A DNA stretch of 64,000 nucleotides from Mucilaginibacter yixingensis. Lineage in GTDB: Bacteria; Bacteroidota; Bacteroidia; Sphingobacteriales; Sphingobacteriaceae. A model generated the notes under the pieces. That model was given only the letters and a program-made list of their open reading frames with translations, was not told where the DNA came from and ran no database searches. The stretch's first letter is position 1, and each line of letters starts with the position of its first letter. Positions 37,877 to 59,577 of this stretch are shown piece by piece. Location of the stretch: NCBI RefSeq assembly GCF_041080815.1, contig NZ_CP160205.1, positions 248,001 through 312,000 of the forward strand. The letters run 5' to 3'. Made by a program: the position numbers and the translations under genes.

Positions 37877-38269
37877 TTAGTCTAATTGCGGGTCAATATA
37901 CACCGGTATGGTATATCGCATTCGTACCGGTCTGCCTTTAACTTTGGCTGGTATCCACCGTGGCGAAAGTTTTAATACACGTATCAATTCGTTATCTATT
38001 TGCGATGCAGGTTTGCGCACTGCTTTAAAGCCTGATAGTGTACCGTCTTTTTCTATTATAAAACTCACTACGGCCTTACCTGTTACTGCTTCACCTTGCT
38101 TAATATCAGGGTAACGTATATGCTTGTTAATAAAGGTATAAAACTTATCTATCCCGCCGGGAAACTCCGCCGATTGCTCAACAGCGTTATAGATTTTTTC
38201 TTTATGCTGCGATTGGCAGGTGATGGAAAAACTACAAATCAGTATGACGAAAAGCGTACGTAAAAACAT
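37877..38269 (-). CDS. Secreted single TonB C-terminal-domain protein (type 1)
   Basis: A 130-residue protein. A signal sequence (about 1-20, with a possible lipobox FSITC) is directly followed by one TonB C-terminal domain (EQSAEFPGGIDKFYTF ... YTIPVYID). It lacks the cytoplasmic anchor and the proline-rich periplasm-spanning region of true TonB energy transducers, so it cannot draw on ExbBD. The domain resembles the first TonB_C domain of the BlaR1-like protein at 57865-59577 (VSFIIEKDG; DNE..RV.KLSP). It lies 98 bp after the paralogue at 38368, past a hairpin. Confidence 0.85.
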   Translation of the reverse strand: MFLRTLFVILICSFSITCQSQHKEKIYNAVEQSAEFPGGIDKFYTFINKHIRYPDIKQGEAVTGKAVVSFIIEKDGTLSGFKAVRKPASQIDNELIRVLKLSPRWIPAKVKGRPVRMRYTIPVYIDPQLD

Positions 38270-38367: not shown

Positions 38368-38763
38368 CTACCGTTGAAACAAGATAGGAATGGTATATTG
38401 TTGCCTTACCGGTTTATTGTCATGCATAGCAGCATTCCACTTCGGAGATAATTTCATTACGCGTATCGCTTCTTCATCGCATCCGTAGCCAATGCCCCTA
38501 ACTACTTTGATGTCTGTAAGCGAACCATCCTTCTCTACCACGAAGGTTAAAAATACCTTGCCCTGTACATTGTTCTTTTTAGCATCCGGCGGATATTTGA
38601 GGTTCTTACTCATAAATTTAAAAAACGAATCTATGCCTCCCGGAAACTCTGCCGATTGCTCTATTTTGCTATAGATTTCTTCTTGTTCTTGTGCGTGCAA
38701 CTTGCCAATAGAGAACAGCAGTGCGGCTATCAGTAGTAATGTTTTTAGACCCTTAATTTTCAT
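38368..38763 (-). CDS. Secreted single TonB C-terminal-domain protein (type 2)
   Basis: A 131-residue protein. A Sec signal peptide (ending KLHAQ) is followed by one TonB C-terminal domain (EQSAEFPGGIDSFFKFM ... QQYTIPILF), without a transmembrane or proline-rich spacer. It is very similar to the second TonB_C domain of the BlaR1-like protein (shared NVQGKVFLTF, RGIG.GCDEEAIRV and PKWN). Its promoter contains two copies of the dyad found in the blaI promoter. The two facts together suggest common control and perhaps interaction with the same ligand or receptor. The function is unknown. Confidence 0.87.
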   Translation of the reverse strand: MKIKGLKTLLLIAALLFSIGKLHAQEQEEIYSKIEQSAEFPGGIDSFFKFMSKNLKYPPDAKKNNVQGKVFLTFVVEKDGSLTDIKVVRGIGYGCDEEAIRVMKLSPKWNAAMHDNKPVRQQYTIPILFQR

Positions 38764-38779
38764 TCGATAAAATTTAAAT

Positions 38780-38795
38780 AACTAATTGATTAGTT
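38780..38795. promoter_or_regulatory. Putative BlaI-type operator, site 1
   Basis: AACTAA-TTGA-TTAGTT, perfect 6-bp half sites (7 bp with flanking bases), between the promoter -7 element and the start codon at 38763. It matches 38802-38817 and 57400-57415. Confidence 0.68.
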
Positions 38796-38798
38796 GTT

Positions 38799-38829
38799 TA
38801 AAACTAATGCATTAGTTTGTCGAATGCAA
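38799..38829 (-). promoter_or_regulatory. Promoter of the secreted TonB_C gene
   Basis: On the - strand: TTG (38829-38827), a 20-bp spacer, then TAGTTTTA (38806-38799), one base off TAnnTTTG. The spacer and the -7 element contain operator site 2. The geometry is the same as in the blaI promoter. Confidence 0.65.
38801..38818. promoter_or_regulatory. Putative BlaI-type operator, site 2
   Basis: An 18-bp perfect palindrome with core AACTAA-TGCA-TTAGTT overlapping the -7 region of the TonB_C gene promoter. Its centre is 22 bp, about two helical turns, from that of site 1, so two dimers could bind the same face. Confidence 0.72.
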
Positions 38830-55933: not shown

Positions 55934-57340
55934 TTATCCCCCCAACTCAAACTTTTCATGCTGATACGGGATGTGGATATGCTTAAACCCGGCATCCTTC
56001 AGTTTGCCTGCAAAGTTTTGCTGCACTTCATACTCGCCGTGCACCAGAAAGATCTGTTTCACTTTTTCGGGGTCCTGCTTTTGCAAAAAATGGATCAAAT
56101 CCTCGTAGTCGCCATGGGCACTCATTGATTTGATGCTTTGCACCTCGGCCACCACATTATATTCTTCACCAAAAATGTGTACATGCTTTTCGCCACGCAG
56201 CAGGCGCCCGCCCAGCGAGTTGGGTTCGCAATACCCCACCATCAGGATGGTGTTTTTCTTACTGGCAATGTTATTTTTTATGTGATGCTTTACCCTACCA
56301 GCCTCGGCCATACCCGATGAGGAGATGATGACACACGGGCGAGGGTCATTATTAAGTGCGATAGATTCCTGGGTAGATTGTACAAACCGCAGCCCTTTAA
56401 ACGCAAACGGATCGGCATCAACCTTCATCACCTGGTTCACATTATGGTTATAAACTTCGGGGTGATCTTTCAAGATCTGGGTAGCTTTTTCAGACAGCGG
56501 ACTATCTACAAAATATGGCAGATCCGGCAAACGGCCTTGGTTTTCCAGCGCGTTGAGGGCATACAGAATCTCCTGCGTACGGCCAACGCTAAAGGCAGGG
56601 ATGATCACCTTACCTTTCTTCACCATACAGGTATGTTTAATCACCTCGTACAGCGCATCCTCAATCGGACCGATATCTGCATGCAAGCTGTCGCCATAGG
56701 TTGATTCCAGCAGGATGTAATCGGCTTGGTTAAATCCTTGCGGACTTTTCAGTATCATATCGCCATAACGCCCAACATCTCCACTGAAGGTGATCTGCGT
56801 CTTTTGCCCATCCTCATGAACCGTTAAATGCACCGCTGCACTACCCACCACGTGGCCTGCATCTGTAAAATAAAGGGTCACCCCGGGGGCTATCTCCGTT
56901 TCCTGATGATATTCCACCAGTTTAAACTGACGCATGGCGTTCATGGCGTCTTCTTCGGTATAAAGTGTTTTGAGTAGCGGCAAACTTTTACGGGCACGAT
57001 GCTTGTTGCTATACTCGGTATCCTGCTCCTGGATACGGGCCGAGTCGGCCATCAGGATGCGGGCCAGATCCATCGTGGGTGGCGTGCAGTAAATAGGGCC
57101 CTCGAAGCCTTCGGCTACCAGGCGGGGGATCAACCCGCAATGATCAATGTGCGCGTGCGAGAGCACCAGCATATCAACCTTTTTGGGGTTGAAGCCAAAG
57201 TGCTCGTTCAGATCCTCGGTATGGTCGCCCAAGCCTTGAAACATGCCGCAATCCAGCAAAATATTGGTACCGTTGGTTAATGTTAGCAGGTGCTTACTGC
57301 CGGTAACCTGCCGCGCAGCTCCATGAAACGTTATGTGCAT
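55934..57340 (-). CDS. Beta-CASP metallo-beta-lactamase-fold ribonuclease/hydrolase
   Basis: A 468-residue protein. The MBL domain has SHAHIDH (His62, His64, Asp66, His67) and a later GDVGRYGD; an inserted beta-CASP domain (about 200-400) contains VGRTQEILYAL and the SSSGMAEAGRVKHH segment, and the last metal-binding motif is in SAHGDYEDL and VHGEYE near the end. This is the CPSF73/archaeal-RNase-like subgroup (YSH1/RNA exosome-like MBL), which cuts RNA. Residues for two zinc ions appear intact. It is divergent from blaI. Confidence 0.92.
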   Translation of the reverse strand: MHITFHGAARQVTGSKHLLTLTNGTNILLDCGMFQGLGDHTEDLNEHFGFNPKKVDMLVLSHAHIDHCGLIPRLVAEGFEGPIYCTPPTMDLARILMADSARIQEQDTEYSNKHRARKSLPLLKTLYTEEDAMNAMRQFKLVEYHQETEIAPGVTLYFTDAGHVVGSAAVHLTVHEDGQKTQITFSGDVGRYGDMILKSPQGFNQADYILLESTYGDSLHADIGPIEDALYEVIKHTCMVKKGKVIIPAFSVGRTQEILYALNALENQGRLPDLPYFVDSPLSEKATQILKDHPEVYNHNVNQVMKVDADPFAFKGLRFVQSTQESIALNNDPRPCVIISSSGMAEAGRVKHHIKNNIASKKNTILMVGYCEPNSLGGRLLRGEKHVHIFGEEYNVVAEVQSIKSMSAHGDYEDLIHFLQKQDPEKVKQIFLVHGEYEVQQNFAGKLKDAGFKHIHIPYQHEKFELGG

Positions 57341-57393: not shown

Positions 57394-57424
57394 TTGCGAA
57401 ACTAACGTATTAGTTATAAGTTTA
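57394..57424 (+). promoter_or_regulatory. Promoter of the blaI-blaR1-like operon
   Basis: TTG (57394-57396), a 20-bp spacer, then TAAGTTTA (57417-57424), one base off TAnnTTTG. The spacer is almost entirely filled by the operator dyad at 57400-57415. Confidence 0.68.
57400..57415. promoter_or_regulatory. Putative BlaI operator, site 3
   Basis: AACTAA-CGTA-TTAGTT lies between the -33 and -7 elements of the blaI promoter. The same half sites with the same 4-bp spacing lie in the promoter of the secreted TonB_C gene at 38.8 kb. Binding here would block polymerase, giving autorepression. Confidence 0.72.
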
Positions 57425-57472: not shown

Positions 57473-57844
57473 ATGGAAATCAAAGAGTTAACGCGTGCCG
57501 AAGAGCAGATTATGCAGGTATTGTGGCAATTGGGGAAGGGTTTTGTAAAGGAGGTGATAGATCAGCTGCCGGAGCCTAAACCTGCTTATAATACTGTGTC
57601 TACCATTATCAGGATATTGGAGACTAAGGGCTTTATTGGCCATAACGCATTTGGCAAAAGCCATGAGTATTACCCGCTGATTACCCGCGAGCAATACCAA
57701 AACTTTGCGACTGATAAATTACTGAACGGCTATTTTGATAACTCAGTGAAACGCATGTTCTCTTTCTTTGTTCAGAAAGAAAAGATTGACCTGAAAGAGG
57801 CCGACGAGATTATGCAGTTAATTGAAAAACTGAAAGATAAGTAA
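57473..57844 (+). CDS. BlaI/MecI/CopY-family transcriptional repressor
   Basis: A 123-residue protein of the penicillinase-repressor family. The winged-helix DNA-binding domain (about 1-80) begins MEIKELTRAEEQIMQVLWQLGKGFVKEVIDQLPEPKPAYNTVSTIIRILETKGFI, and a C-terminal dimerisation region follows (FVQKEKIDLKEADEIMQLIEKLKDK). In this family a cleavable linker is cut when the BlaR1-type sensor is activated. The start at 57473 is preferred over an in-frame TTG at 57437, which lies in the leader. It is 20 bp from the sensor gene. Confidence 0.93.
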   Translation: MEIKELTRAEEQIMQVLWQLGKGFVKEVIDQLPEPKPAYNTVSTIIRILETKGFIGHNAFGKSHEYYPLITREQYQNFATDKLLNGYFDNSVKRMFSFFVQKEKIDLKEADEIMQLIEKLKDK

Positions 57845-57864: not shown

Positions 57865-59577
57865 ATGAACTGGTGGCATTATCTTTTGCTGGCCAACATT
57901 TACCTTACGCTATTCTTCAGCTTTTACATGCTGTTTTTACGTAAGGAGACCTTTTTTAACCTGAACAGGGTTTACCTGGTAGGCGGAGCGGTATTGTCAT
58001 TCGCGCTGCCGCTGGTGCAATCGGCATGGGTAAAACAACTGTTCATCACACAAAAGGTACAGCAAACTATTTTGCGGGTTGATCCCAATGCTATCTACCA
58101 GTTCAACGTAGCCGCCATGGCACATACACAACGCCAGGTAACCCTGGGCGAGGTGCTCGCAGCTGTTTACGGCGCGGGGATATTGTTCTTTTTCTGCCGA
58201 TTCTTTTATCAGCTGATTCAGCTGCAGGTAGATATCCTTCAACCCAAAGCACCAAGCACCTTCTCATTCTTTAACAAGATCAGGATTGAGGAGAGCGATG
58301 CTGATAACATGTACATCACCGCGCATGAGGAAGCGCACGCCCGCCAGTGGCACTCGGCCGATATTATTTTGATTGAAGCCATAACCATCCTCAACTGGTT
58401 TAACCCGGTGGTGTACCTATATCGCAATGCCATCCGTCACATCCACGAGTTTATTGCCGACCGCGATGCCCTGCATGGCGGTGCCGACAAAGCCGAATAT
58501 GCCATGCTGCTGGTAGCGCAAACCTTTCACGCACCGCCGCACCGTATGGTTAATCCGTTCTTTAACAACAGCATGCTCAAAGAGCGGATTAAAATGCTGC
58601 AAAAGAACCGCTCGGCACGTATTATGCTGTTTAAATACTGGTTATCGGCACCGCTGTTTATGCTGATGCTGATCTTGTCGTCAGCCACGGTAAATAACAG
58701 CAAGGCGGTTAACGCCATTCAAAACCGGGCGCAACAAGTATTTGCTACACCGGCTATCAATGCCATCACGAACGATCACTCGGGCGAGATTCCCGAGGAA
58801 ATGACTGCACCCAACAATAGCGCGCAGCCATTTAATGAGCATAGCATTAAAGATTATACAGCGCTTGAGCAAACTGCCGAGTTCCCTGGCGGCCTTGATG
58901 CGTTTTATGCTTTTTTGGCGATGAATATGCATTACCCGCAGGAGGTTGACGCCCAGGGGAAAGTGCTGGTAAGTTTTATCATCGAGAAAGACGGCGCACT
59001 CAGCAATTTCAAGATTACCCAGAGCCTTGCTCCTGCTTTTGACAACGAGGCGATGCGGGTTGTAAAATTATCGCCCAAATGGCACCCAGCCGTACAGAAC
59101 GGTCAGCCTATTCGCGAGCAGTTTACCGTGCCTATCAGCTTCACTTTATTTGCCAATAACAACAAGAAGCCACCTGTGGTTAAACCAGCTCCGCAGCCAG
59201 AGAATAACAACGAGGTGTTTACTGCGGTAGAACAATCTGCCGGCTTCCCCGGTGGTATAGAAGCCTTCTACCGTTATCTATCTTTAAACATCCGCTACCC
59301 GGAAGAAGCCCGCACGCACAATGTACAAGGCAAGGTGTTTTTAACCTTTATAGTTGAGCGAGACGGCTCCATCAGCAACATTAAACTTTTGCGCGGCATT
59401 GGCAGCGGTTGTGACGAAGAAGCTATCCGCGTATTTAGCAACATGCCTAAATGGAACCCTGGCCTGCAAAATGGTTATGCCATAAGACAGCAATACACGG
59501 TGCCCATCAGTTTCTCGCTGGTGGAGAACCACACGCCGGCTCCAAAAGCCACAACCGACAGTACAGCCCGTAACTAA
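57865..59577 (+). CDS. BlaR1-like M56 metallopeptidase with two TonB C-terminal domains
   Basis: A 570-residue inner-membrane protein. N-terminal transmembrane segments (about 4-22, 33-55 and 90-115) flank an M56 zinc metalloprotease domain with HEEAH (His154, Glu155, His158) and HEFIADRDAL (about 194-203). A further transmembrane segment (about 255-275) leads to a periplasmic region with two TonB_C domains in tandem (about 330-420, EQTAEFPGGLDAFYAF; and about 450-560, EQSAGFPGGIEAFYRY) in place of a penicillin-binding sensor. It presumably senses something through the TonB_C domains and cleaves the BlaI repressor. Part of the regulon described in the findings. Confidence 0.92.
   Translation: MNWWHYLLLANIYLTLFFSFYMLFLRKETFFNLNRVYLVGGAVLSFALPLVQSAWVKQLFITQKVQQTILRVDPNAIYQFNVAAMAHTQRQVTLGEVLAAVYGAGILFFFCRFFYQLIQLQVDILQPKAPSTFSFFNKIRIEESDADNMYITAHEEAHARQWHSADIILIEAITILNWFNPVVYLYRNAIRHIHEFIADRDALHGGADKAEYAMLLVAQTFHAPPHRMVNPFFNNSMLKERIKMLQKNRSARIMLFKYWLSAPLFMLMLILSSATVNNSKAVNAIQNRAQQVFATPAINAITNDHSGEIPEEMTAPNNSAQPFNEHSIKDYTALEQTAEFPGGLDAFYAFLAMNMHYPQEVDAQGKVLVSFIIEKDGALSNFKITQSLAPAFDNEAMRVVKLSPKWHPAVQNGQPIREQFTVPISFTLFANNNKKPPVVKPAPQPENNNEVFTAVEQSAGFPGGIEAFYRYLSLNIRYPEEARTHNVQGKVFLTFIVERDGSISNIKLLRGIGSGCDEEAIRVFSNMPKWNPGLQNGYAIRQQYTVPISFSLVENHTPAPKATTDSTARN

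Follow-up and report, generated by a model that had tools for sequence, protein, structure and literature searches.

In the window (the whole stretch of 64,000 nt of DNA that was analysed) a 16-base mirror-image (dyad) site, AACTAAnnnnTTAGTT, adjoins the gene of a BlaI-type repressor. The question raised by this locus is whether the site is the operator of that repressor and which genes it places under its control. The first-pass annotation had suggested that the BlaI-like repressor controls two loci, its own operon and the gene of a secreted TonB_C protein. Our computation supports the control of both, binding being inferred, and indicates that a scope of two loci was too narrow, the regulon amounting to 10 dyad loci in this genome. 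We consider it very likely that AACTAAnnnnTTAGTT is the operator of the repressor (BlaI-1) and that it defines a derepressible regulon of several promoters, a reading for which there are no binding or expression data.

Exact copies of AACTAAnnnnTTAGTT were found at three sites only in the 64,000-nt window (57400-57415, 38780-38795 and 38802-38817). The copy at the blaI-blaR1 promoter (AACTAACGTATTAGTT, 57400-57415, plus strand) is an exact match that is kept at orthologous promoters. It sits between the TTG (57394-57396) and the TAAGTTTA (57417-57424) of a promoter with a 20-bp spacer (57394-57424, plus strand). The promoter of the gene encoding the secreted TonB_C protein of 131 aa (38799-38829, minus strand) is likewise composed of TTG, a 20-bp spacer and TAGTTTTA. 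Here dyad 1 (38802-38817, minus strand) overlaps the spacer and the -7 element, and dyad 2 (38780-38795, minus strand) lies just downstream, beginning about 3 bp past the -7 element, around the expected start site. The three positions, the absence of other exact copies in the window and the promoter geometry at both loci (TTG, 20-bp spacer, -7 element of TAnnTTTA type) had all been claimed in the first-pass annotation and held, as did the placement between -33 and -7 claimed for blaI; the TonB_C dyads overlap or follow the -7 element. Gene starts were taken throughout from open reading frames (ORFs). When up to two mismatches were allowed the window gained two sites, both with two mismatches, and the resulting count of 5 was not above that of shuffles (mean 4.06); the evidence for the dyad rests on exact matches, placement and conservation and not on mismatch-tolerant counts in the window.

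The gene blaI-1 (57473-57844, plus strand, ATG at 57473) encodes a 123-aa repressor of the BlaI/MecI family, with a Penicillinase_R match (PF03965, 1.4e-31; 109.7 bits, cut-off 22.6) over residues 6-118 and a match to the MecI structures 1sd6/1okr at 5e-8. The family trait of a dyad at the repressor's own promoter is met, by sequence only and without binding data. The operator is not of the TACA/TGTA type of characterised BlaI/MecI members, being AACTAAnnnnTTAGTT instead; this criterion describes the characterised members and not the whole family. Gene blaR1-1 (57865-59577, plus strand) encodes a 570-aa M56 metalloprotease (PF05569, 4.5e-12; 46.2 bits, cut-off 31) with HEEAH at residue 154 and several hydrophobic segments, the last of which (about 253-276) precedes two C-terminal TonB_C repeats (PF03544, 2.3e-35). 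It matches the BlaR1 structure 8exp at 8e-5. A Pfam scan of its C-terminal half found TonB_C only and no penicillin-binding (class-D-like) sensor domain. Against the blaR1_generic profile it scores 20.1 bits (cut-off 400), and the scores of the pair fall well short of the curated cut-offs for BlaR1 and BlaI. BlaR1-1 may work like BlaR1, but it fails the criterion of a beta-lactam sensor. An M56 domain with HExxH, joined to either one or two TonB_C domains, was present in all 76 complete BlaR1 proteins of the genus and at 19 of 20 class-level loci; for the remaining one (L332) only a 107-aa ORF was recovered. Divergent from blaI lies a beta-CASP gene of the metallo-beta-lactamase fold (55934-57340), which adjoins blaI in 67 of 80 genus-level (Mucilaginibacter) loci, and one intergenic region may conceivably serve both genes.

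The second locus of the window encodes the 131-aa protein (38368-38763, minus strand), in which a signal-like N terminus, judged by eye, is followed by TonB_C (PF03544, 2.1e-20; 73.4 bits, cut-off 24.6; residues 54-129). The identities first assigned to these genes, BlaI-like, BlaR1-like and TonB_C, were thus upheld by Pfam (Penicillinase_R, Peptidase_M56 with two TonB_C, and TonB_C, respectively). So was the similarity claimed between the sensor domain and the distant gene, the 131-aa protein having 55% identity over 105 aa to the second TonB_C repeat of BlaR1-1. A tandem paralogue of 130 aa (37877-38269, minus strand; PF03544, 2.4e-9) lies 98 bp downstream and is possibly co-transcribed, by inference. 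No full-length orthologue of the 131-aa gene was evident in the genus, the search ranking TonB and BlaR1 domains first, and for this reason its control is inferred from one genome only. The link with BlaI-1 rests here on motif, placement and enrichment, without binding data.

The genome comprises 5.36 Mb in one contig and contains 12 exact dyads at 10 loci, against 2 for the reversed control pattern. This genome search, proposed as a check in the first-pass annotation, revealed no scatter of dyads outside promoters, each of the 12 lying at most 111 bp upstream of a gene start as read from ORFs. Besides the blaI-blaR1 operon, with one exact dyad, and the 131-aa TonB_C gene, with two, the loci are those of two more TonB_C proteins (one of 222 aa, and one of 276 aa that includes a CarboxypepD_reg-like stretch), of a TonB of 280 aa with two tandem dyads, of ExbD, which has an exact dyad and a second one with a single mismatch, and of two outer-membrane barrel proteins of the OMP_b-brl_3 type. 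The remaining two are the locus of a secreted protein of 421 aa that gave a weak ChaN-like match and that of a MazG-like gene (L019:5132-6450, one exact dyad), after which comes a DUF4349 gene. TonB_C is encoded by 15 genes of this genome (16 matches, two within blaR1) and is found at 5 of the 10 dyad loci (P about 4e-11), or at 4 of 9 when blaR1 is left out (P about 6e-9), assuming an estimated 4,700 genes or so. No match to serine beta-lactamase or penicillin-binding protein families was obtained among the dyad-linked genes scanned.

The MazG-like gene is unexpected as a target, having no evident connection with the envelope, and together with the ChaN-like protein it stands as a caveat to the regulon, outside a tidy TonB theme.

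A genome search with one mismatch gave 31 hits against 45 for the control, so single-mismatch dyads are unreliable alone and were kept only beside expected genes, namely the clustered tonB and the second site at exbD. In the exbB-exbD-exbD-tonB cluster (L146:3272-6275) the 1-mismatch dyad TACTAAACTTTTAGTT is placed inside the cluster, 63 bp upstream of tonB.

Conservation across species, another check proposed at the outset, bore out the blaI dyad both in the genus and in other families. It was present in 79/79 close blaI-1 orthologues with readable upstream DNA, 66 times exactly and 13 times with one or two mismatches. In the 551 kb around these orthologues 70 of 79 exact dyads fell within 300 bp upstream of blaI, and three control patterns gave 3 hits in the same DNA. 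Over 41 Mucilaginibacter genomes there were 195 dyads against 47 reversed ones; in the three that have no BlaI exceeding about 60% identity the counts were 1, 0 and 0. The class-level comparison drew on 148 genomes, and the 25 loci examined with blaI homologues of other families all carried the dyad (18 exact, 4 with one mismatch, 3 with two). Most of these genomes have few exact copies, the one at blaI being within about 100 bp of the gene. By sequence comparison, the operator at blaI is kept class-wide in Bacteroidota (Bacteroidia).

The consensus following the 70 exact genus-level blaI dyads is G-TAnnTTT, the -7 element beginning one base past the dyad, and the blaI dyad of the window shares this register. 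This position immediately before the -7 element makes the dyad very probably the operator of BlaI, and a bound dimer would overlap the polymerase. At the class-level blaI loci two dyads often occur with a distance of exactly 20 bp, or two helical turns, a spacing which, as inferred from sequence, would put two dimers on one face of the DNA.

The targets themselves change between species. We sorted 60 dyad loci from 16 sister genomes by downstream gene and obtained blaI operons (15), a secreted TPR protein of about 380 aa (12), outer-membrane barrels (10), CarboxypepD_reg (6), FtsX/MacB-type permeases (6), GLPGLI (4) and others (7), six recurring families covering 53 of the 60. Apart from the blaI operons none of these 60 loci had TonB_C, and TonB_C, TonB or ExbD targets with exact dyads were not found in the sister genomes examined. 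Across the genus TonB promoters are mostly without the dyad, so that by the promoter test the TonB link is not ancestral. From the tally and the promoter result together it follows that blaI autoregulation is ancestral and the outer-membrane barrels are recurrent, and the TonB_C/TonB/ExbD branch is likely to be specific to this lineage.

The TPR protein is the commonest non-bla target in the sister species (L194, L200, L203, L210, L214, L216, L223, L233, L238, L242, L245 and L251), and its gene is usually divergent from one of about 95 aa beginning MDKLKKF or similar. At L204 and L225 an exact dyad accompanies a second BlaI paralogue as well, and it is possible that in some relatives repressor and dyad need not pair one to one.

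The rival explanation that survives best, which we hold to be unlikely, is that the dyad acts as the BlaI operator solely at blaI, and that its copies near the TonB_C gene and at other loci arose by chance or belong to another factor. In its favour, AT-rich dyads do arise by chance, as the reversed control indicates (2 in this genome, 47 in the 41 genomes), and conservation of the TonB_C targets does not extend to sister species. Against it are the 12 copies versus 2 in this genome and their promoter placement, the tandem dyads at the TonB_C and TonB genes, the exact plus near copy at exbD, the enrichment of TonB_C, and the six recurring families at 53 of 60 sister loci. Given the doublets, the placement and the enrichment, chance copies at non-bla genes are unlikely. 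There is very little to support the idea that the dyad serves the divergent beta-CASP gene, or an unrelated repressor, with blaI a mere neighbour. This gene does flank blaI at the 67 of 80 genus-level loci and starts 60 bp from the dyad. However, at class level it neighbours blaI at only 3 of 30 loci, all of one family, while the dyad stays with blaI; moreover the dyad is in register with the -7 element pointing to blaI, and genomes without a close BlaI-1 are largely without it (1, 0, 0). It is also very improbable that the system is a conventional resistance switch induced by beta-lactams, as in staphylococci: BlaI is a homologue of MecI and the M56 part one of BlaR1, but the C-terminal half is TonB_C with no penicillin-binding sensor domain found, the dyad-linked genes scanned lack serine beta-lactamase and penicillin-binding families, and the scores are far below the curated cut-offs. 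Wall damage or stress as an indirect cue remains possible and is not excluded.

In the reading that we prefer, that of AACTAAnnnnTTAGTT as the BlaI-1 operator of a regulon, a BlaI dimer between -33 and -7 would block RNA polymerase at the promoter of its own blaI-blaR1 operon and would also repress about nine further promoters of the genome. The predicted targets include the 131-aa TonB_C gene, TonB, ExbD, two further TonB_C genes and two outer-membrane barrels. BlaR1-1 would be an inner-membrane M56 protease in which a periplasmic TonB_C replaces the beta-lactam sensor of Staphylococcus; an envelope cue sensed by TonB_C would lead the protease to inactivate BlaI, and the regulon would be derepressed. 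The architecture of BlaR1 suggests, by inference, transduction of the BlaR1 type with a different sensor. The comparison supports operator identity, autoregulatory position, BlaR1 architecture and regulon membership by site, whereas repression, proteolysis of BlaI and the TonB or outer-membrane nature of the cue are inferred only. A protease-repressor pair known from penicillin resistance would seem to serve envelope watching here. A bolder reading, no more than possible, is that across Bacteroidia the BlaI-M56 systems sense the state of the TonB/outer-membrane machinery. Periplasmic TonB_C domains would compete with TonB for the TonB boxes of receptors, the system would set how much TonB, ExbD, barrel and decoy TonB_C protein is supplied, and sister paralogues may sense other pieces of the machinery, for instance BlaR1-3 with its Plug-like segment.

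In known BlaR1 systems a C-terminal class-D-like domain senses the beta-lactam, and the activated protease inactivates BlaI (PMC7593790). Staphylococcus aureus BlaI/BlaR1 and MecI/MecR1 (PMC7593790) resemble the present pair in having a same-family repressor next to a membrane-bound M56 zinc protease that carries HExxH, an autoregulated operon and a dyad operator within the promoter. They differ in the sensor, a class-D-like beta-lactam-binding domain where BlaR1-1 has TonB_C, in the operator, TACA/TGTA (PMC7253601) as against AACTAAnnnnTTAGTT, and in the targets, blaZ and mecA as against the envelope genes found here. BlaI_0696 and BlaI_1845 of Clostridium thermocellum (PMC8457756) are also autoregulated, with operators of two inverted-repeat pairs, a half-site, GACTAT (GTCTAT inverted repeats 5 nt apart), that resembles AACTAA, and a small regulon, found by DAP-seq (PMC8457756); the spacing and the phylum are other, and that regulon, in which TonB genes are absent, was interpreted there as a response to antibiotics. 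CopY/CopR (PMC7253601) share the repressor superfamily (weak TIGR02698 match) and a 16-base operator, but this operator is RNYKACANNYGTMRNY, they respond to metal via C-terminal CxC motifs (PMC7253601), and BlaI-1 falls far below the cut-off of the CopY profile (45.5 against 121.95 bits). The TonB energy transducers (PF03544) have the TonB_C domain in common with the 131-aa protein and BlaR1. The 131-aa protein differs in passing directly from its signal-like N terminus to TonB_C, with no room for a long periplasmic linker, so that the anchor and linker criterion of a transducer is unmet, and BlaR1 differs in being a protease fusion.

In the open-access literature searched there was no report of a AACTAAnnnnTTAGTT operator or regulon in Bacteroidota; subscription papers were outside the scope. 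The names BlaI and BlaR1 suggest penicillin resistance in Bacteroidota, and the class-wide operator makes of the pair a testable envelope-sensing pathway. Bacteroidota depend heavily on TonB-dependent uptake. A regulon that can be computed gives a handle on how they tune their genes for TonB, ExbD and outer-membrane barrels. It is moreover an example of regulon turnover round a fixed operator, in which the autoregulatory site stays in place and most of the targets differ from species to species.

Three BlaI paralogues are encoded in the genome, and an AACTAA dyad marks the promoter of BlaI-1 alone; the promoters of BlaI-2 and BlaI-3 bear paired TACGA-n6-TCGTA or TACGA-n5-TCGTA dyads. The BlaI-2/M56 pair (L026:5240-7693; G000:C1 about 1620239-1622692) has two TACGA-n6-TCGTA dyads before blaI, and its partner is a 689-aa M56 protein without TonB_C. 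About 5 kb from this pair an AACTAA dyad precedes a TonB_C gene. The BlaI-3/M56 pair (L027:4522-6635; G000:C1 about 2493021-2495134) has two TACGA-n5-TCGTA promoter dyads, and the C-terminal half of its partner, BlaR1-3, has a Plug-domain match.

The TACGA dyad was considered as the mark of a second large regulon and rejected, with 5 hits against 8 for the control, two of them within a repeated ORF; the only such sites of apparent meaning are likely to be the BlaI-3 promoter pair and one OMP gene. This further TACGA dyad lies upstream of the gene for a 940-aa OMP_b-brl_3 protein (L143:2978-5866), and the BlaI-3 system and this barrel could possibly form a parallel pairing of sensor and target.
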